Made by a program: the position numbers and the translations under genes. DNA of 61,084 nucleotides, from positions 1 through 61,084 of the forward strand of contig JACCRF010000128.1 in assembly GCA_013813715.1 (NCBI GenBank), read 5' to 3'. A model generated the notes under the pieces. It saw only the letters and a program-made list of their open reading frames with translations, was not told the DNA's origin and made no database searches. The stretch's first letter is position 1. Every line of letters starts with the position of its first letter. Source of the stretch: Gemmatimonadaceae bacterium (GTDB lineage: Bacteria; Gemmatimonadota; Gemmatimonadetes; Gemmatimonadales; Gemmatimonadaceae). Positions 1,813-12,261 of this stretch are shown here, piece by piece.

Positions 1813-3426
1813 ATGACCACAACCCGCAGATCATTCGTCACTTCCGGCGCCGCCGCGCTTCTCGGGTCGTTCGGTGGGCCCGCTGTTCTCGCGCAGCGCG
1901 CCGACTACGATCTGGTGATTCGCGGAGGCACCCTCTTCGATGGCACCGGCGCCGAGGGTCGCATCGTCGATCTCGCGGTCGCGAATGGACGTATAGCGGC
2001 GGTGGGATCGCGTGTCGCGCGCGGCCGGGAGGAGATAGACGCTCGGGGGCTAGCGGTGGCACCGGGCTTCATCGACATACATTCCCACGGCGACGGCACA
2101 CTCGGCGAAGATCCACGGGCGGAGTCGGTAGTCAGGCAGGGAATCACTACGATCGTTGCCGGCGCGGATGGGAGCTCACGGGCGAGCGGCGCAGACGATA
2201 AGTCGTTCGCCGATCTGTTCCTGTCGCTCGACCGGTTGAAGCCGGCCGTCAACGTTGCGTCCATGATCGGGCTGGGCACCGTGCGCGGCGCAGTGATCGG
2301 TGACAGGGGCCGCTCAGCGACGGCGACAGAGCTGGCGCGCATGACGGCGATGGTGGAGAGCGCAATCGCGGATGGAGCGTGCGGCGCGTCGTCCGGTCTC
2401 GAGTACACTCCCGGAGCATTCGCGTCGCGGGACGAGCTCATCACCTTGTGCCGCCCACTTGCGCCGCGCCGGCTTCCGTACGCCACTCACATGCGGAACG
2501 AGGATGACCGGCTCCTCGATGCGATCGACGAATCGCTCGCCGTCGCGCGCGGAGCTGGCTGCGCGCTCCAGATATCGCATCTGAAAACTCAGGGGCCGCG
2601 GAACTGGCCGAAGCTGGATCAAGTCTTCAATCGCATCGAAGCGTCGCGAAGTGCGGGTGTCGACGTCGCCTTCGACCGATACCCGTACACCGCGTACTCG
2701 ACGGGGCTTACCAACCTCTTTCCGGTGTGGAGCCGCGACGGAGGAGTAGATGCTTTCCTCGGACGTCTCGCCGCTACCGCTACCGGGCCGCGCATCAGAC
2801 AGGAGGCGCTGGCGAAGGTGGACCTCATAGGCGGATGGGACAACGTGCTTGTCTCCAGCGTGCGTGCGGTCGCTGACCGCAATGCGGAAGGCAAGCGACT
2901 GGGCGCGTACGCCCGCGACCGCGGAGCCGACCCCTATGAGCTCGCCGTCGGACTTCTGAGACAAAGTCGTGGTGACGTCGGGATGCTGGGATTCGCGATG
3001 AGCGAGGAGAATCTCGAACGCATCCTGAAACATCCACTTGGCATGGTATGCACCGATGGCGTGGCGTTCGCGATTGATGGCCCGACGCGCCGCGGAAGTC
3101 CCCATCCGCGTAGCGCTGGAAGTTTTCCCCGGGTGCTAGCGCGCTACGTCCGTGAGCGAAAGGTCCTGTCGCTTCCCGAGGCGATCAGGAAGATGACGTC
3201 GCTGCCGGCGTCACGAGTGCGACTCAACGATCGCGGCCGGCTAGTGGTTGGCCTGGCGGCCGACGTCGTGGCGTTCGACCCGGCGCGGATTGCCGACACG
3301 GCGACGTTCGAGGCGCCGTTCCAGTATCCTGCAGGTATTGCCGCCGTGGTAGTAAACGGCGTGGCTGCCCTTCGCGATGGGCAACGCAGCGCTATCGGGA
3401 GTGGCAGGGCGCTCCGTGCCGGCTAA
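1813..3426 (+). CDS. N-acyl-D-amino-acid deacylase-type amidohydrolase, Tat-exported
   Basis: The 537-residue protein begins with a twin-arginine signal (TTRRSF, cleavage near Ala27). A typical amidohydrolase follows: metal ligands HSH at 90-92, THMRNE with His226, QISHLK with His256, and a late CTDG Asp. Length and motif order match the D-aminoacylase branch, which removes N-acyl groups from D-amino acids. The Cys of the usual NCG motif after the first barrel strands is absent; the segment reads GADGSS (117-122). That changes the expected metal site, so the substrate is uncertain. The gene diverges from the frameshifted amidohydrolase with 57 bp between them and precedes the DUF202 gene by 12 bp. 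Confidence 0.85.
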   Translation: MTTTRRSFVTSGAAALLGSFGGPAVLAQRADYDLVIRGGTLFDGTGAEGRIVDLAVANGRIAAVGSRVARGREEIDARGLAVAPGFIDIHSHGDGTLGEDPRAESVVRQGITTIVAGADGSSRASGADDKSFADLFLSLDRLKPAVNVASMIGLGTVRGAVIGDRGRSATATELARMTAMVESAIADGACGASSGLEYTPGAFASRDELITLCRPLAPRRLPYATHMRNEDDRLLDAIDESLAVARGAGCALQISHLKTQGPRNWPKLDQVFNRIEASRSAGVDVAFDRYPYTAYSTGLTNLFPVWSRDGGVDAFLGRLAATATGPRIRQEALAKVDLIGGWDNVLVSSVRAVADRNAEGKRLGAYARDRGADPYELAVGLLRQSRGDVGMLGFAMSEENLERILKHPLGMVCTDGVAFAIDGPTRRGSPHPRSAGSFPRVLARYVRERKVLSLPEAIRKMTSLPASRVRLNDRGRLVVGLAADVVAFDPARIADTATFEAPFQYPAGIAAVVVNGVAALRDGQRSAIGSGRALRAG

Positions 3427-3438
3427 ACACCGCCCGCA

Positions 3439-3804
3439 ATGACCGAACCGCATTCCGATCCCAGGGTTTACTTCGCGGCTGAACGGACGATGCTGGCCTG
3501 GCTCCGTACCGGCATTGCGATCATGGCCTTTGGCTTTGTCGTCGCGCGGTTCGGTCTTTTTCTTCGCCTGATCCTTGCGCAGACGGGTGAGCCACCCGGG
3601 CGCGGCCTGTCGCCTTTTGTGGGCGCTGCCCTGGTCGTCCTCGGCGTGGTGGCGACAGCGGGAGGGGCGGTGCAATTCCAGCGTTTCTGTCGCACGCTTT
3701 CACCGTCGGAGCGTCCACCCAACGCGCGTCCCGGGTTTACACTCGGGATAAGCTGGACGCTCGTGCTTGTCGGGACCGCGATGGTTCTCATGCTCTCGGT
3801 GTAG
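3439..3804 (+). CDS. DUF202 (YidH-like) inner-membrane protein
   Basis: This 121-residue protein shows the DUF202 signature: an N-terminal FAAERTMLAWLRTGIAIMAFGF segment that forms the first membrane helix, then two more hydrophobic helices near residues 50-70 and 100-120. The family has no firmly established function. The start is 12 bp after the amidohydrolase stop, so co-transcription is likely. Its 3' end overlaps the convergent DUF1460 gene by 17 bp. Confidence 0.85.
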   Translation: MTEPHSDPRVYFAAERTMLAWLRTGIAIMAFGFVVARFGLFLRLILAQTGEPPGRGLSPFVGAALVVLGVVATAGGAVQFQRFCRTLSPSERPPNARPGFTLGISWTLVLVGTAMVLMLSV

Positions 3805-4714
3805 CCCCACCAGCCAGCGGACGCGCCACGAGGATGCCGGTAGATCGTCGTATGGCGGCGACGTATTCGGCGAGCGTTGTGCGCGTGATCTCGACCATCC
3901 CGCCGGACAGTGGCGCGTGCAGCACTCGTAGCACACCGCTCGCGTCGCGGTACGCAAAGGCGGCGTGGCTCACGTCGAGCCCCGGAATCGACGTTGCAAA
4001 CGCCAGCACGTCACCGGTCTCGATGCGGCTCGCGATAGCCGGAATTCGCGCCGTTGGTATGACGTGTCGCGGGCGACTGTCGAGCCGTCGCTCCATCGCT
4101 CCGATTTCGCGGAACACGACATCGTTGGCGAGCGCGGGGTAGCTCGCCCGGTGCTCCGTCATAAAGCGAAGGGGGCGCGGGTCGGGGATGCCGCCAAGCT
4201 GCGCGCCGAGGTCACGGAGCAAGCCGCGCTTAGCGCCATCGGTGATCCACTCGCTGAAATAGTGCAGTCGCGATGTGTACCCGCGGCGGTTCCCGCCTCG
4301 ATAGCGCATCTGTTCCATTTCGCGACCGAAGCGCTTCCATGACGGCGCGGCTCTGTCGTCCGCGAGGCGCGCAACGGCGATGCAGGACTCCACAAGCGTG
4401 ACGCAATCGAACCTGGTCAGCGATAGCGCGAGCGGCTCGGCACGCGTGGGATTGCCACCCTCGCGAATGTACTCTTCGAGCGTGAATGCCTGATAGGGAG
4501 TACCGATGGCGAGCTCTCCGACTCGGGCAGCCCGCGGCCCGAGCGGAAGCGATCGCTGGCCCGGCGTTTCGCGCCGGAGCGCTGCCGTCCAGTCGGCTAG
4601 GCGGGTTTCATCGGTGTCCTGGAGCGCTGCGGCAAGAGGAGCGGGAAACGCGATCGTTGCCGCGGCGATGGCGGCTTTCCTGAGAAGTTCTCGACGCGAA
4701 AGAGGAGTGTCCAT
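3788..4714 (-). CDS. DUF1460 family protein, exported (amidase-like fold)
   Basis: The ATG at 4714 gives a 308-residue protein with a Tat-like leader (SRRELLRKAAIAAATIAFP, cleavage near Ala30). A longer reading frame upstream runs through the inverted repeat and is unlikely to be translated. The RFDCVTLVES block (Cys104) and the later DVSHAAF segment are the conserved Cys and His of DUF1460, an NlpC/P60-like fold. Characterised relatives act on cell-wall amide bonds, so a role in peptidoglycan trimming is inferred only. The start lies 22 bp from the left arm of the inverted repeat shared with the divergent fusion gene. Confidence 0.82.
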   Translation of the reverse strand: MDTPLSRRELLRKAAIAAATIAFPAPLAAALQDTDETRLADWTAALRRETPGQRSLPLGPRAARVGELAIGTPYQAFTLEEYIREGGNPTRAEPLALSLTRFDCVTLVESCIAVARLADDRAAPSWKRFGREMEQMRYRGGNRRGYTSRLHYFSEWITDGAKRGLLRDLGAQLGGIPDPRPLRFMTEHRASYPALANDVVFREIGAMERRLDSRPRHVIPTARIPAIASRIETGDVLAFATSIPGLDVSHAAFAYRDASGVLRVLHAPLSGGMVEITRTTLAEYVAAIRRSTGILVARPLAGGATPRA

Positions 4715-4736
4715 GGTATGGAAAGAAAAATCAACA

Positions 4737-4869
4737 TAGAACGACAGAGATGCGAGTGGCCAGAAGCATAGCTTCCAGGCTCGAGGGTGCGAACCGGCCA
4801 AGCGTGAGCGATTGCGGCTCCTCGGAACTCTGAGCTGTGCTTCTGGCCTCTCGCATCTCTGTCGTTCTA
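4737..4869. repeat. Near-perfect inverted repeat between divergent genes (family 1 element)
   Basis: The arms at 4737-4773 and 4833-4869 are 37 bp each and match as reverse complements at 35 of 37 positions, with a 59-bp spacer. The left arm ends near the DUF1460 start (4714) and the right arm ends 12 bp before the fusion-gene start (4882). The outer part of each arm (TAGAACGACAGAGATGCGAG) resembles the termini of four other intergenic elements at about 15831, 40289, 41045 and 54025. It could be a repeat copy that also carries the promoters, or a folded leader in either transcript. Confidence 0.85.
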
Positions 4870-4881
4870 AGTTTCGAGGTG

Positions 4882-7086
4882 ATGGCAAACATTGGCTCAA
4901 TCGCGTCAGCTATCGTCATTGGCTCGGCCCTCGTGTGCACCAGCGCCACGCAGGGCGTGCCGCCGCAAGAAAAGGCCGGCCCCGGCCTAAAGCGCGGCGT
5001 CGCCTCCGCAGACTCGATGGTCAAGGCCGCGCTCGGCGCACTGATACCCGGCGCTGTCCTCCTCATCGCAAAGGATGGAAAGGTCATTCACGAACGCGCG
5101 TATGGGTACGCCGAGCTCAACGACTACTCGATGCAGCGGCTCGCTTCGCCTCGTCGCATGCGTACGACGACGCTGTTCGACCTTGCGTCCGTAACCAAGG
5201 TGATGGCGACCACGTTTGCCGCCATGCTCCTCGTGGATCGCGGGCAACTGAGCCTGGACGTACCGCTGCATCGCTATCTTCCCGACTTCCGCGGCCCGCG
5301 CCTCGACAGCATCACCGTCCGCCACCTGCTCCAACACTCGTCAGGGCTCGTGCAATGGCAGCCCCTCTACTACCAGGCCGCGAACAGCGCGCAAACCTAC
5401 GTGGCGATTCGCGACATGCCCCTCGGTTGGGGCGTCGGGGAAGGGCGTCACTACAGCGATCTCGGTTTCATGCTGCTCGGCTACATCATCGAGCACGTCG
5501 GTGGGCGCGCCCTGGACGTTTTCGTCGAGCAGGAGCTCTACATGCCACTTGGCCTGCGTGCGACGACGTTCACCCCGAGGAAGCGCGGCCTCACTGAATT
5601 TGCCGCGACCGAGCAGGGCAACGTCTACGAGCGCCACATGGTTTACGATTCCACCTTCGGCTACCGCTACAGGGGCGATCCGAAGGCGTGGAATGGCTGG
5701 CGCCAGCACGTGCTCATCGGCGAAGTGGACGACGGCAACGCCGCCTATGCAAACGCAGGCGTCGCGGGACATGCGGGACTGTTCTCGACTGCGGCCGAGC
5801 TGCGAGTGCTCCTCGACCTTCTTAACAATCGCGGCGCGTACGGCGGACGCAGCTACATCCGGCCGGCTACCGTGGATCAGTTTCTCACCCGCGATCGCTT
5901 CCAGCACTACCTCGGCTGGCAGTTTCCGCCGGGTATGCTCGCGGGCACATTCGCTCACAGCGGATTCACGGGCACTTGGGTCGCCGGCGTTCCAAAGCAC
6001 AAGCTGTCGATCGTACTACTCACGAACCGGCAGAACCTCGGCACCAACGACCGGGGTTTCTTCCCCGACGTTGCTCCACTTCGCGAGGCGGTGACAAAGG
6101 CGATAACGCGAGGCGCAGAGGCGGATACCGAAGGGGAGAATGGCGAATCGCCGCGCTTCGAGGCTGCAGATTTTCAGCAGGGGCGCTGGCTCAAAGGGAA
6201 CACTCACACCCACACACTCGAAAGCGACGGCGACTCACCGCCTGAGTTGGTGGCGAGCTGGTACAAGAAACACAGCTACAATTTTCTCGTGATCTCCGAC
6301 CACAACGTGTGGGTCAATCCGGCGAAACTCGCGCACCTGGTGGATTCAACGTTTCTCCTCATTCCCGGCGAAGAGCTCACCACTCGATTCGGGACGAAGC
6401 CGGTTCATGTGAACGGATTGAACATTCCTCGCGTGATCGAGCCGCGAACCGACACTACATTGCTCGGAACAGTGCAGAAGAATGTTGATGCGGTGCGCGA
6501 GGTTGCCGGCGTTCCGCACATCAATCACCCCAACTTCGGGTGGGCGCTGAGCCCCGAAGTTCTCGCGAGAGTGCGCAACGACAAGCTGATCGAAATTCAC
6601 AACGGACACCCGTTCGTGAACAACCTCGGCGGCGGCGACTCGCCAGGAATGGAAGCCGCATGGGATATCATGCTGACCGGCGGGAAGAGGATCTACGGCA
6701 TCGCTGTGGACGACGCGCATCATTTCCAGGGAGAGTTTGCCCCCAACAGGTCGAATCCGGGGCGCGGGTGGGTGGCCGTGCGCGCTCAGCGGCTCCACGC
6801 GGTCGACATTCTTCAGCAAATGGAGGCGGGTCGGTTCTACGCGAGCACCGGGGTCGAGTTCGATTCGCTACGCATAACGCCGCAGCGGATGGAGATCCAC
6901 ATTCGGCGCCGAGAGGATTTCAAGTTCACGACGGAGTTCGTCGGTAGGGGCGGCAGGCTGCTGAAGAGTACCGGCGAGAATCCGGCGACATACCGGTTAT
7001 CAGGCAGCGAGACGTACGTCAGAGCGAAGGTCACCGATTCGAACGGAGGCGTCGCCTGGGTGCAGCCGGTGTTCGTCGAGCGATGA
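4882..7086 (+). CDS. Serine beta-lactamase-like hydrolase fused to CehA/McbA-type PHP domain
   Basis: The 734-residue protein starts at ATG 4882, which gives a clean signal sequence; an earlier ATG (4837) lies inside the inverted repeat. Residues 45-400 form a beta-lactamase/esterase domain with SVTK (Ser103, Lys106), YSD (191-193) and HSGFTG (359-364). Residues 435-734 form a PHP metallo-hydrolase domain with HTH (442-444), SDHN (472-475), PGEE, INHPN and a VDDAHH segment, as in CehA/McbA-like phosphoesterases. The reading frame is continuous and a 30-residue acidic linker joins the domains. Both catalytic sets look intact, so it may be a two-step periplasmic hydrolase; the substrate cannot be read from sequence. 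The stop overlaps the next start (ATGA). Confidence 0.85.
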   Translation: MANIGSIASAIVIGSALVCTSATQGVPPQEKAGPGLKRGVASADSMVKAALGALIPGAVLLIAKDGKVIHERAYGYAELNDYSMQRLASPRRMRTTTLFDLASVTKVMATTFAAMLLVDRGQLSLDVPLHRYLPDFRGPRLDSITVRHLLQHSSGLVQWQPLYYQAANSAQTYVAIRDMPLGWGVGEGRHYSDLGFMLLGYIIEHVGGRALDVFVEQELYMPLGLRATTFTPRKRGLTEFAATEQGNVYERHMVYDSTFGYRYRGDPKAWNGWRQHVLIGEVDDGNAAYANAGVAGHAGLFSTAAELRVLLDLLNNRGAYGGRSYIRPATVDQFLTRDRFQHYLGWQFPPGMLAGTFAHSGFTGTWVAGVPKHKLSIVLLTNRQNLGTNDRGFFPDVAPLREAVTKAITRGAEADTEGENGESPRFEAADFQQGRWLKGNTHTHTLESDGDSPPELVASWYKKHSYNFLVISDHNVWVNPAKLAHLVDSTFLLIPGEELTTRFGTKPVHVNGLNIPRVIEPRTDTTLLGTVQKNVDAVREVAGVPHINHPNFGWALSPEVLARVRNDKLIEIHNGHPFVNNLGGGDSPGMEAAWDIMLTGGKRIYGIAVDDAHHFQGEFAPNRSNPGRGWVAVRAQRLHAVDILQQMEAGRFYASTGVEFDSLRITPQRMEIHIRRREDFKFTTEFVGRGGRLLKSTGENPATYRLSGSETYVRAKVTDSNGGVAWVQPVFVER

Positions 7087-7766
7087 GCACCGATCCACTG
7101 AGCGACGACAGAATCATAGAATCGTGGCAGACCAATGCGGCACCATGGACTGACGCGGTTCGCGGGCGGCAGATCGAGAGCCGCAACCTCGTCACCAACG
7201 CGGCCATCGTGGAGGCCGTGTTGAGCCGCTCGCCGCGCACCGTGCTCGACATCGGATGCGGCGAGGGATGGCTGGTGCGCGCACTCGCCGAGCATGGCGT
7301 CCAGGGAATCGGCGTAGATGTAGTGCCTGAGCTCATCGAGGAAGCGGAACGCGCCGGCGCCGGCGATTTCCACGTCGCGTCGTATGAAATGATCGCCACG
7401 GGTGAGTTCCACGTCACGGTGGATGTCGCCATCGCCAACTTCTCTCTCATTGGGAATGAATCGGTGGATGGCATCGTTCAGCGCGTTCCCGCGATGCTCG
7501 AGCCGCGTGGCTCCTTCATCGTTCAGACTCTGCACCCGGTGATCGCGAGCGGCGACATGCCATACGAGGACGGGTGGCGCCCGGGGTCGTGGGCGGGCTT
7601 CAACGAAGCCTTCTCCGATCCGGCACCGTGGTACTTCAGGACGATGAACACCTGGCTCGACCTTTTCACCGACAGCGGTCTGCGGATGGTGGAGATTCGC
7701 GAGCCGGTGAACCCCAGATCGGGGAAGCCGGCGTCGGTGATCTTCATCGCCGAATGTTCTTGCTAG
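7083..7766 (+). CDS. Class I SAM-dependent methyltransferase
   Basis: The 227-residue cytoplasmic protein carries motif I, VLDIGCGEG (54-62), followed by GIGVDVV for binding S-adenosylmethionine. The middle SLIGNE segment and the late YEDGW and WLDLF region are typical of small-molecule methyltransferases of this size. The start overlaps the fusion hydrolase stop by 4 bp, so translation is probably coupled. The methyl acceptor is not predictable. Confidence 0.88.
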   Translation: MSTDPLSDDRIIESWQTNAAPWTDAVRGRQIESRNLVTNAAIVEAVLSRSPRTVLDIGCGEGWLVRALAEHGVQGIGVDVVPELIEEAERAGAGDFHVASYEMIATGEFHVTVDVAIANFSLIGNESVDGIVQRVPAMLEPRGSFIVQTLHPVIASGDMPYEDGWRPGSWAGFNEAFSDPAPWYFRTMNTWLDLFTDSGLRMVEIREPVNPRSGKPASVIFIAECSC

Positions 7767-7854: not shown

Positions 7855-10800
7855 ATGACCCTTACTTCCGTTTACCGTTGCGCGCTCGCGCTCGCATTCG
7901 CTCTCACCGCAACCCCGGCGCTGCTGGTGAGTCAGACTTCCGACGGAGTGGTAAGGGGCCGGGTGACGGACGCTGCCTCCGGCCGCGGCCTGGCTGAGGC
8001 CCAAATCGTTGTCACCGGCACCCGCATCGGTGCGATCACCAATGCCGCGGGAGATTTCATGCTGGCAGACGTGCCCGCCGGGGACCGATCGATCACAGTG
8101 CGCCGCATCGGCTATCTGCCGGCAACGCAGACGATCAATGTCGCCAGTGGATCCACCGCGACGGTCGCCGTGGCGTTGAGGGTGAGCGCCGTGAATCTGA
8201 GCGAAGTAGTCGTCACCGGGACGGGGACTGCGACCGAGAAGCGCAAGCTCGGGACGAGCATCGCGTCAGTTGATTCGACTCTCATCGGCCGCGCCCAGGC
8301 GGTGACACTCGATCAGGCGATGCAGGGAAAGATTCCCGGCGCGCAGATCACGCAGAACTCGGGCGGTCCGGGGGGCGGTGGAATGTCGGTGCGCCTCCGC
8401 GGCGTCAACTCGTTTATATCCGGCTCCGATCCGCTTTATATCATCGACGGCGTGATCATTGACAACGGATCCGCGCAGCTCGCCGATCTCGGGGGCCGGT
8501 CGAATCCCCAGAACCGCCTTGCCGACATCAACCCGGCGGACATCGAGCGCGTCGAGGTGATCCGAGGCGCTGCCGCCGCCGCGCTCTACGGATCACGGGC
8601 CAACAACGGTGTCGTGCAGATCTTTACCAGGCGCGGCACCACCGGCAAGCCGCATTTCACCTATACGAGCCGCCTCACGACGAATGAGCTGCGCGAGCAG
8701 CAGCCGTTCAACTTCTATCCCTTCGACGCCGCCGGTCTGCCGAGCCCCCGGTTCAACTATCAGGACGACATCTTCCGGCGCGCGATGGGCAGCGAACAGA
8801 ACGTGACGGTCGAAGGTGGAAACGACCAGACGCGCTACTTCGTGAGTGGAAACTTCGCGAAGGAGGACGGCATTCTTCGGTCAACCTCATCGCAGCGTGC
8901 CGGGGCGCGGGTCAACCTGCAACAGCATCTCACCTCGCGCCTCATCGGGAGTGTGACGGCAAACTACGTCACGACGCACAACGAGCTCCAGGCCTTCGGA
9001 GAGCAGAACAACTATGGCGTCATGGGGTCGCTTTTCTTCGCCCCGACCCATATCGACTTCCGGCCAGTGAACGGCGTCTACCCGTTGCCGCCAACGCTCG
9101 GAACAAACCCGTTTCTGGCAATCGATCGCATCACTAACCCGCAGACGATCGACCGTTTCATCGGCGCGACGAAGCTGACCTGGACGCCACTCACCAGCCT
9201 CGTGCTGGACTACACGCTCGGGATCGACAACACCAGCTTCGAACAAGGACAATTCGTTCCCCGTAATGCAGTACTCGGTACGGATCCGCTTGCCACCGGA
9301 CGGTCGTTGTCCGTGTTTCAGGGAACGCGCGTCATCAACCAGGACGGGGTGGCGAGTTACACCTGGCGGCCGATGGGGCCAATCGAGATGCGCACTACTG
9401 GTGGATTCAACCACACGGCGCAACGAGTGAAGACGACGAGCGCCGAGGCCAATGGCCTGGCGCCGGTTGGAGAGCTGGTGAGCGCGGGCTCGGCGCCGAG
9501 GGCGGCGCAGACCGACGTCGAACTTCGCACGCTCGGTTTCTACGGACAGCAGGAGCTGGCGTGGAACGACCGGCTCTTTCTTACGGGAGCGGTTCGCTAC
9601 GACGCGTCGTCCACGTTCGCGCCATCTGAGCGCTGGCAGGTATTCCCGAAGTTCTCGGGATCGTACGTGGTTATCGCCAATCAGCCTGGCCGCCTCAACA
9701 ACCTGCGGCTGCGCTCGGCCATCGGCTGGGCGGGCAGCCAGCCCGGGATTGTGAACGCGTACTCCCAGTTCGTCACGTACACTCAGGAATCTTTCGCGCT
9801 GCGGCCAGGCTTCGTCAACGCCACCACCTTCGGCAATCCCGAACTGCGCAACGAGCGCGCTCGCGAATGGGAGGTCGGGGCAGAGCTCGGTCTCCTGGCC
9901 GGGCGGGTAGGGCTCGAAGCGACTTATTACGACCGGTTGGTGTCCGACCTGCTGTTCTTCCGCCCGCTGCCTACCAGCACCGGTTTTTTGCGCCAGTTCT
10001 TCCCGATCGGCACGATGTCCAACAAGGGGTTCGAGCTGCTCGCTCAAACAACGAACCTCGATGCGCCGAACTTCGGTTGGTCAACCACGGCTACCTACAC
10101 TCGCAATCGGAATCTCGTAGAGAGCCTGGCGATTCTGGATTTCCAGTCAGCGGGCGGATACCCGAACCGCATTCGCGCCGGAGAGCCGGCGGGCGTGTTC
10201 TACGGGTCGTACGCTGCGCGCGACTGTGTCACGGGCGCGCTGCTGCTCGACTCGCTCGGCCGGTATCGGCGCAGCAACCAGACGGCCGACATGGGAACGC
10301 TGGCCCAGCGGCGCGCGATCAGCAACGGAACGTGCAACGATTCACTCAATAAGGTCATCGGCGATCCGAATCCCGACTGGATGGGCTCGTTACTCAACGA
10401 GTTCACGATCGGGAAGAAGCTGCGCGTGCGTGCGCTGCTCGATGGAGTGTTCGGGAACGACATCATGAATCTCTCCACGCGCGCGCAGAACGCCGGCATC
10501 GCGAGCAACTCGAAGGAATATGAGCGCGAGCTTCTGCCCTACGGTGATTCCCGCAAGCTGCCGCCCACCTTCAACTCTCGGACACAGGGAATCTTCGAGT
10601 ACTGGATCGAGGACGGCACCTTTGTGAAGCTTCGCGAGCTTTCGGCGAGCTACAAGTTCGACGCAGAGCCCGTGCGCTGGCTCTTCAGGGAAGGCGTGGA
10701 TGTGACAGTTTCGGGTCGCAATCTCTATGTGTGGACCGATTACAGCGGCTTCGATCCGGAGATCAACCTGTTCGGAACGAACGCAGGTGGGAGGGAATCC

Positions 10801-10890
10801 GTTCAGACGACGGCTGCTGACCGGGGCTTCGACTTCGGCGGCTACCCGATTCCGCGCGTGTGGTCAGTAAGTGCGCGATTTACGTTCTGA
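7855..10890 (+). CDS. SusC/RagA-family TonB-linked outer-membrane transporter
   Basis: The 1011-residue protein has a signal peptide (cleavage near Ser26) and then a carboxypeptidase-regulatory-like domain (about 30-110). A SEVVVTGTG TonB-box region follows, then a plug domain with the SusC signature DPLYIIDG (192-199) and a long beta-barrel ending in an aromatic residue (SARFTF). SusC proteins form an energised channel lidded by a SusD lipoprotein, here the next gene 18 bp downstream. There is no glycosidase, anti-sigma or sensor gene nearby, so the imported substrate is unknown. Peptides or other nutrients are as likely as glycans. Confidence 0.95.
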   Translation: MTLTSVYRCALALAFALTATPALLVSQTSDGVVRGRVTDAASGRGLAEAQIVVTGTRIGAITNAAGDFMLADVPAGDRSITVRRIGYLPATQTINVASGSTATVAVALRVSAVNLSEVVVTGTGTATEKRKLGTSIASVDSTLIGRAQAVTLDQAMQGKIPGAQITQNSGGPGGGGMSVRLRGVNSFISGSDPLYIIDGVIIDNGSAQLADLGGRSNPQNRLADINPADIERVEVIRGAAAAALYGSRANNGVVQIFTRRGTTGKPHFTYTSRLTTNELREQQPFNFYPFDAAGLPSPRFNYQDDIFRRAMGSEQNVTVEGGNDQTRYFVSGNFAKEDGILRSTSSQRAGARVNLQQHLTSRLIGSVTANYVTTHNELQAFGEQNNYGVMGSLFFAPTHIDFRPVNGVYPLPPTLGTNPFLAIDRITNPQTIDRFIGATKLTWTPLTSLVLDYTLGIDNTSFEQGQFVPRNAVLGTDPLATGRSLSVFQGTRVINQDGVASYTWRPMGPIEMRTTGGFNHTAQRVKTTSAEANGLAPVGELVSAGSAPRAAQTDVELRTLGFYGQQELAWNDRLFLTGAVRYDASSTFAPSERWQVFPKFSGSYVVIANQPGRLNNLRLRSAIGWAGSQPGIVNAYSQFVTYTQESFALRPGFVNATTFGNPELRNERAREWEVGAELGLLAGRVGLEATYYDRLVSDLLFFRPLPTSTGFLRQFFPIGTMSNKGFELLAQTTNLDAPNFGWSTTATYTRNRNLVESLAILDFQSAGGYPNRIRAGEPAGVFYGSYAARDCVTGALLLDSLGRYRRSNQTADMGTLAQRRAISNGTCNDSLNKVIGDPNPDWMGSLLNEFTIGKKLRVRALLDGVFGNDIMNLSTRAQNAGIASNSKEYERELLPYGDSRKLPPTFNSRTQGIFEYWIEDGTFVKLRELSASYKFDAEPVRWLFREGVDVTVSGRNLYVWTDYSGFDPEINLFGTNAGGRESVQTTAADRGFDFGGYPIPRVWSVSARFTF

Positions 10891-10908
10891 CCCGCGGAGA
10901 CCGTCATC

Positions 10909-12261
10909 ATGCGAATAATCAGACAGTGCGTGGTGCTCTTGGCGGCGGCGTCGCTCGCGGGATGCGAGCTCGACCTTCAGAATCCCAATTCGCCGACTGA
11001 GGGCCAGGTTACCAGCAGTCCCGATGGTGTCATCGCGCTGGCGACGGGACTTCAGAGCCGATTCGCGAGTTCGTACGGTAACTTCGCGTACATGGCGGGA
11101 CTGGTGACCGACGAATTCGCTTCAGGCTCGGCGGCGCTCATCTCGATCAGCGATTCCGAGCAGGGGTCAGTCGCGCCTGGCACGGCGATCGCCGACATCG
11201 TGTTCAACTCCATCTACCGAACGGTGCGTACCGCAGACGATCTACTCACCGGCGCTGAAGCACTTTCGGGTAGCATTGAAGCGGGGACGCGCAGCGGCCT
11301 GCGTGGACTGGCATTCGCGCTAAAGGCCGAGGCGCTCGGCGAGGCGCTACAGTCCTACCAGCGGATTCCGATCGTAACATTCGGCGAAACAGCGCCGGCG
11401 TATGTTGGTCGTGCCGAGGCCCTGGCGGTTGTGCGGCAGCTCCTCGACTCGGCGGCAAACGGGATCGCCGCAACGCCGCCGAGCACGTTCTTCAACAACA
11501 GCATCCTGACGCCGGGCGTGAATCTGCCAAACGTGATCCAGCTTTTCAGGGCGCGTTATGCGCGGATCGCGAGCGACGATGCGACGGCATTGGCGTCGGC
11601 GAACCTTGTTGGCCGGACGGGTTCCGCGGCGCTCTCGGTGCTGACGTTCCCCTCGCCGACGGTCAACTTCTACGCGAATGTCACCGGTGGCACCAACGGC
11701 ATCGCGCCGCGGCGACAGTTCCGGCTCTCGATGCTGCCGCAGGATCAGCGGTTCGCGTATTTCGTGGTGCCATCGACGACACTTTCAGGCCGCGTCGGGG
11801 CGCTGCTCGATCCGTGGAACCGGTATGCGAACCCCCAGGCGCCGCTCCCCGTCTACTTTCCGGACGAAGCGCTGCTGATAAAAGCCGAGGCGCTCGCGAA
11901 TCAGAACCAGCTCTCCGCGGCGCAGGCGGTGCTCGACTCTGTTCGTACCGATTGCACCGGCGGCCGCGGGCTCGACGATCCGAAGGCCTGTCTTCCGCCG
12001 CTTGGCGCGCAGCTCACACAGAGCCAGCTCCTCGCCGAGATCTACGTGCAAAGGCGGTACGAGCTGCTTGGTACCGGTCTCAGGTGGGAGGACGCGCGCC
12101 GGCGCAACGCGATCCGCGGACCGACTGCGGCTCCCGCCGTTCCGGTTGACGGCCAGCGGTGCTGGCTGCCGTACTCGATAGGTGACCGCAACGCGAATCC
12201 CAACGTTCCCCCCGATCCGGCCGAGCCGGGCACGTTTCCATCTGGCTGCCCACTCCAGTAG
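10909..12261 (+). CDS. SusD/RagB-like outer-membrane lipoprotein
   Basis: The 450-residue lipoprotein has the lipobox LAGC (Cys19), followed by the ELDLQNPNSPTEGQ segment common after lipidation in gemmatimonad SusD proteins. The TPR-like helical body and the C-terminal VQRRYELLGTGLRWEDARR block are typical of the RagB/SusD family. It should sit on the cell surface as the substrate-binding lid of the SusC channel encoded immediately upstream. The gene order SusC-SusD-DUF4397 indicates one operon. Confidence 0.93.
   Translation: MRIIRQCVVLLAAASLAGCELDLQNPNSPTEGQVTSSPDGVIALATGLQSRFASSYGNFAYMAGLVTDEFASGSAALISISDSEQGSVAPGTAIADIVFNSIYRTVRTADDLLTGAEALSGSIEAGTRSGLRGLAFALKAEALGEALQSYQRIPIVTFGETAPAYVGRAEALAVVRQLLDSAANGIAATPPSTFFNNSILTPGVNLPNVIQLFRARYARIASDDATALASANLVGRTGSAALSVLTFPSPTVNFYANVTGGTNGIAPRRQFRLSMLPQDQRFAYFVVPSTTLSGRVGALLDPWNRYANPQAPLPVYFPDEALLIKAEALANQNQLSAAQAVLDSVRTDCTGGRGLDDPKACLPPLGAQLTQSQLLAEIYVQRRYELLGTGLRWEDARRRNAIRGPTAAPAVPVDGQRCWLPYSIGDRNANPNVPPDPAEPGTFPSGCPLQ

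Follow-up and report, generated by a model that had tools for sequence, protein, structure and literature searches.

A probable recent fusion of a PBP4B-related serine hydrolase with a CehA/McbA-type PHP metallohydrolase in Gemmatimonadaceae

The window, the whole 61,084-nucleotide stretch of Gemmatimonadaceae DNA analysed here, contains a gene that encodes a serine hydrolase domain (D1) and a CehA/McbA-type PHP metallohydrolase domain (D2) in one chain. The fusion gene is real and was confirmed to be two ordinary exported enzymes joined end to end. The parts are known; the combination of a beta-lactamase-family domain and a PHP domain in one chain is new. It is probable (about three in four) that the gene arose by a recent, lineage-specific fusion of normally separate enzymes, in which D2 was inserted in frame, the two activities stayed independent, and the chimera has been eroding in relatives. 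Because the fusion is found in only two species, and their close relatives have lost one half or the other, two independent enzymes on a shared leader are the preferred explanation.

Domains and motifs of the fusion gene

4882..7086, forward: fusion gene, exported serine hydrolase D1 plus CehA/McbA-type PHP metallohydrolase D2, 734 aa (open frame and domain matches)
4882..4956, forward: N-terminal export signal with Cys19 at a degenerate lipobox (ALVC), read by eye; relatives have LLGC, LIGC or LGC at the same place
5038..6039, forward: D1, PF00144 serine beta-lactamase/R61/PBP4B-like domain, residues 53-386 (E 1.3e-60)
6118..6183, forward: linker between D1 and D2, residues 413-434; outgroup D1 proteins end near here, and G175 retains the linker and a relic of the D2 start
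6184..7077, forward: D2, CehA/McbA-type PHP metallohydrolase, residues 435-732, a PHP barrel followed by a C-terminal beta-sandwich at about 657-733 (NF038032, AlphaFold and PDB matches)

The gene is a single open frame of 734 codons with an ATG start and no internal stop; an alternative GTG start lies at 4837, 45 bases upstream of the ATG. The dN/dS values of 0.08-0.15 indicate purifying selection on D1 and D2 alike. An export signal was seen by eye at residues 1-19. Cys19 aligns with the clear lipobox cysteines of two related genomes, G175 (LLGC) and G173 (LIGC), and the window has V at the -1 position. As read from the sequence, the product is probably one exported polypeptide, either periplasmic or lipid-anchored. 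The sequence-only reading had proposed two unrelated hydrolase folds with full catalytic motifs in one chain behind one signal peptide; the PF00144 and NF038032 matches, the complete set of motifs, and the single leader all agree with this proposal.

5188..5199, forward: D1 motif 1, SVTK 103-106, with nucleophile Ser103 and Lys106 (both invariant in the D1 alignment)
5452..5460, forward: D1 motif 2, YSD 191-193, a variant of YxN (sequence and D1 alignment)
5956..5964, forward: D1 motif 3, HSG 359-361 (sequence and D1 alignment); deleted in G173

The D1 half belongs to the beta-lactamase/S12 superfamily, scoring 205.7 bits against PF00144 (gathering score 27) and carrying the SxxK, YxN/YxD, and KTG/HxG motifs as SVTK, YSD, and HSG. 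Seven relatives show no variation at the catalytic positions. The best NCBIfam match was PBP4B (NF002968), with 205.2 bits over residues 41-385, under the equivalog cut-off of 385; judged by this match, D1 is a relative of PBP4B (YfeW), not a member. Assignment as a class C beta-lactamase (AmpC) was rejected, the NF033085 score being 67.6 bits against an equivalog cut-off of 415. Relatives with solved structures include the carboxylesterases 4ivi and 1ci8 and the R61 DD-peptidase 1cef. D1 resembles PBP4B and the other PF00144/S12 hydrolases (R61 DD-peptidase, EstB-type esterases) in its SVTK and HxG motifs and its export; it differs from them in falling under the PBP4B cut-off, in having YSD in place of YxN, and in being fused to a PHP domain. 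D1 is probably a D-peptide, amide or ester hydrolase, in which an acyl-enzyme site formed by Ser103, Lys106, Tyr191, and His359 would act on a D-amino-acid peptide, amide or ester, probably related to the cell wall. A cell-wall role is suggested because of the PBP4B match and the AmiA-like and D-aminoacylase neighbours. PBP4B of E. coli and the amidase AmiE of B. subtilis are both encoded within MurNAc-recycling gene clusters (PMC5061867). In the full-length structure prediction, for which the input sequences (the window and related loci) did not cover D1, this half had a pLDDT below 50. A scan for D1 relatives on viral contigs found none. In another genome of the genus, G164, the D1 ortholog is split over two overlapping frames (C106:39029-40152), reflecting either a frameshift or an assembly error.

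6205..6213, forward: PHP motif I, HTH within HTHT 442-445 (His442 and His444, both invariant in 44 sequences)
6295..6306, forward: PHP motif II, SDHN 472-475 (Asp473, His474; 44-sequence alignment)
6367..6375, forward: GEE 496-498 (Glu498 invariant in the 44-sequence alignment)
6517..6528, forward: PHP motif III, HINH 546-549 (His546, His549; kept in at least 90% of 44 sequences)
6709..6723, forward: PHP motif IV, DDAHH 610-614 (Asp611, His613; invariant in 44 sequences)

The D2 half scored 88.8 bits against the CehA/McbA model NF038032, above its domain cut-off of 80. The AlphaFold model of D2 is confident (pLDDT 95.5) and predicts a PHP barrel with a C-terminal beta-sandwich; its PDB matches were 2anu (Z 21.4) and 3e38 (Z 20.0). 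This modelled barrel, together with the metal-ligand motifs, places D2 in the PHP superfamily. H442, H444, D449, H474, E498, D611, and H613 are invariant in the 44-sequence D2 alignment. The barrel and the HxH, SDHN, H, and DxH ligands are shared with the CehA/McbA family and with the PHP proteins BVU_3505 (3e38) and TM0559 (2anu), and BVU_3505 likewise has two domains, one of them PHP-like. From the family, D2 would probably use a multi-metal site, separate from the serine site of D1, to hydrolyse an ester of the phospho- or carbamate type. Carbamate pesticides are substrates of the characterised CehA (PMC4850150).

Neighbouring genes and distribution of the two halves

1813..3426, forward: D-aminoacylase-type amidohydrolase (profile matches); a neighbour in G173 too
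3791..4738, reverse: AmiA-like gene upstream of the fusion (PF07313); a neighbour in G173 too
7083..7766, forward: class I SAM methyltransferase (PF13489)
7855..12261, forward: downstream SusC- and SusD-type genes, syntenic with D1-methyltransferase in G175

The stop of the fusion gene overlaps the methyltransferase start exactly, as ATGA at 7083-7086. This translational overlap bears out the earlier claim that a methyltransferase is coupled behind the fusion. The methyltransferase has no export signal visible on reading its sequence. Only three genomes of the genus have it next to D1; in G169 and G164 it lies on a different contig from D1. In G172, the methyltransferase beside D1 (L050, about 1600-1998) is the relic of an internal deletion, of which the start and the last part are left. 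Farther upstream, at 504-1779 on the reverse strand of the window, an N-formylglutamate-amidohydrolase-like gene (weak PF05013 match) lies in two reading frames with a break near 1024, owing to a natural frameshift or a sequence error.

The two halves have different distributions. Of the 19 genomes in the genus, 12 carry a clear D1 ortholog and three carry D2 (the window, G173, and G174). Other members of the genus and of neighbouring genera carry the D1 ortholog as a stand-alone protein. D2 stands alone in 43 of 45 loci from the family and in all 80 GTDB loci, the latter being the best 80 of 407 relatives; the two sets share some genomes, and the GTDB scan may omit the genome that the window comes from and those very near to it. 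Stand-alone D2 is generally an exported protein of about 340 aa, mostly with a leader of its own that can be seen by eye. No D1 homologue lies within 5 kb of stand-alone D2 in these best 80 of 407 loci, and no partner gene recurs strongly around stand-alone D2 once close relatives are set aside. When every frame of 150 aa or more in the collected loci was searched with profiles, the window and G173 were the only cases of D1 and D2 sharing a frame. The distribution is thus not that of a conserved bifunctional enzyme: 2 of 45 family loci and none of the 80 GTDB loci are fused, and one of the two fusions is without D1 motif 3. Homologues always split into separate genes would, by the sequence-only reading, speak against its proposal; the loci examined come close to this, with D2 fused only in the window and G173.

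History of the fusion within the genus

The history was drawn from a few genomes of one genus: the window, G172, G173, G174, and G175. In the D1 tree, the window and G175 are grouped (98/91), and G173 joins next (91/89, a position taken from its N-terminal half only). In the D2 tree, the window, G173, and G174 are grouped (97). The two trees agree and are consistent with a single origin of the fusion.

The outgroup G172 has no D2; its D1 ends in GAEADKSRAK, with an ATGA overlap between the D1 stop and the methyltransferase start. The overlap between D1 and the methyltransferase in G172 is identical to that between D2 and the methyltransferase in the window. In the nearest sister, G175, the D1, methyltransferase, SusC, SusD, and DUF4397 genes are syntenic with the window and D2 is missing. 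The D1 tail of G175 passes through the linker and ends in LDAARFQQGRS, which matches FEAADFQQGRW of the window, spanning the linker and the D2 start. Over the whole linker, chance is an unlikely source of the match (0 of 5000 shuffles reached the score); the case is weaker for the D2 part alone (7 of 5000 shuffles; 2 of 626 genomic windows). The frame of G173 is made up of D1 residues 13-241 and a short segment around 310, followed by a linker and D2. It has lost D1 residues of about 242-308 and 318-418, including the HSG motif. G174 has the PHP protein alone.

These data suggest that the ancestor of a few species in this genus had a D1 gene overlapping a methyltransferase gene by ATGA. A gene for a secreted CehA/McbA-type PHP protein would have been inserted in frame between the two, and partial losses would have followed in different directions among the relatives. 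An ancestral fusion that was lost everywhere else was rejected: in several phyla D2 is a separate protein that generally brings its own leader, and D1 in the outgroup reaches a natural end where it meets the methyltransferase. The chimeras of the window and G173 may be two separate fusions, given that their linkers have no clear likeness outside the D2 start; the agreement of the two trees fits a single event. Within one genus, the outgroup without the fusion, the chimera that is still intact, the sister with a D2 relic, and the sister with a partial D1 together make an unusually clean record of a fusion made and undone.

Function of the fused protein and related systems

On the preferred reading of a recent fusion of independent enzymes, the two activities would share a leader, a location, and a dosage, most likely with no channelled two-step reaction. 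The alternative that the chimera is decaying, with one half (probably the serine hydrolase) being lost and the fusion kept by selection merely because it carries the other half, is improbable. G173 carries a gutted serine hydrolase before an intact PHP half, G175 has the reverse loss, and the methyltransferase of G172 is a deletion relic; however, both halves in the window keep all of their motifs and a low dN/dS.

It is also improbable that the protein is a true two-step periplasmic enzyme, in which the PHP domain would hydrolyse what the serine hydrolase releases by ester or amide cleavage and the methyltransferase would serve the same pathway. The intact and constrained active sites in the window and the translational overlap with the methyltransferase speak for such a coupling. 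However, D1 and D2 are separate nearly everywhere and are not neighbours, and the sisters have each lost one half (the PHP half in G175; most of the C-terminal half of D1, with motif 3, in G173). The methyltransferase, without a visible export signal and located away from the D1 contig in G169 and G164, also argues against a shared periplasmic pathway. The coupled reaction put forward by the sequence-only reading was therefore not upheld. If the advantage of coupling were limited to the species of the window, the losses in the sisters would be compatible with it. We would give only a small chance to a working bifunctional exported enzyme, whose PBP4B-like and PHP domains process a single cell-wall or lipid-linked substrate one after the other; if true, this sequential action would be a pairing not described before. 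An assembly artefact or sequencing error joining adjacent genes is very unlikely: the genome is a draft of 183 contigs and the nearest sister, G175, has a stop at the corresponding place, but D1 and D2 also share a frame in the independent assembly of G173, where the upstream neighbours are conserved, base composition is even across the D1-D2 join, and an entire in-frame linker, as opposed to one missing stop codon, separates the halves. Function should not be read off a domain fusion found in one genome.

The literature searched contained no beta-lactamase-PHP fusion and no characterised enzyme of such a build, in line with the earlier statement that none was known. Two other fusions provide precedents. 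RmNag3 is a GH3 N-acetylglucosaminidase with a C-terminal beta-lactamase domain, for which its authors suggested a link to peptidoglycan turnover (PMC6987092). Like the window protein, it combines an exported beta-lactamase-family domain with an unrelated hydrolase, and its build is shared by its relatives; unlike the window protein, it has GH3 as the partner and carries the beta-lactamase domain at the C-terminus. LRA-13 is a class C-class D double beta-lactamase, in which fusion was shown to broaden the range of substrates hydrolysed (PMC5967600). Both LRA-13 and the window protein come from environmental bacteria and fuse a class C-type domain with a second hydrolase, whereas both halves of LRA-13 are beta-lactamases.

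D2 marks a widespread clade of secreted PHP proteins in Gemmatimonadota, Ignavibacteriota, KSB1, Acidobacteriota, and Sumerlaeota. In contrast to the long CehA/McbA proteins of the phylum, D2 falls in a short, stand-alone clade. Many phylum proteins of 850-900 aa contain a CehA/McbA domain (L065-L094), and the three long forms examined consist of an N-terminal PD40 beta-propeller and a CehA domain. Among the family loci and the best 80 of 407 GTDB loci, the nearest D2 relatives outside the genus (L135 and L136; 71 and 69% identity) come from MAGs labelled Ignavibacteriae/Ignavibacteriales. They are closer to D2 than any other family locus, possibly through horizontal transfer or mislabelled bins.
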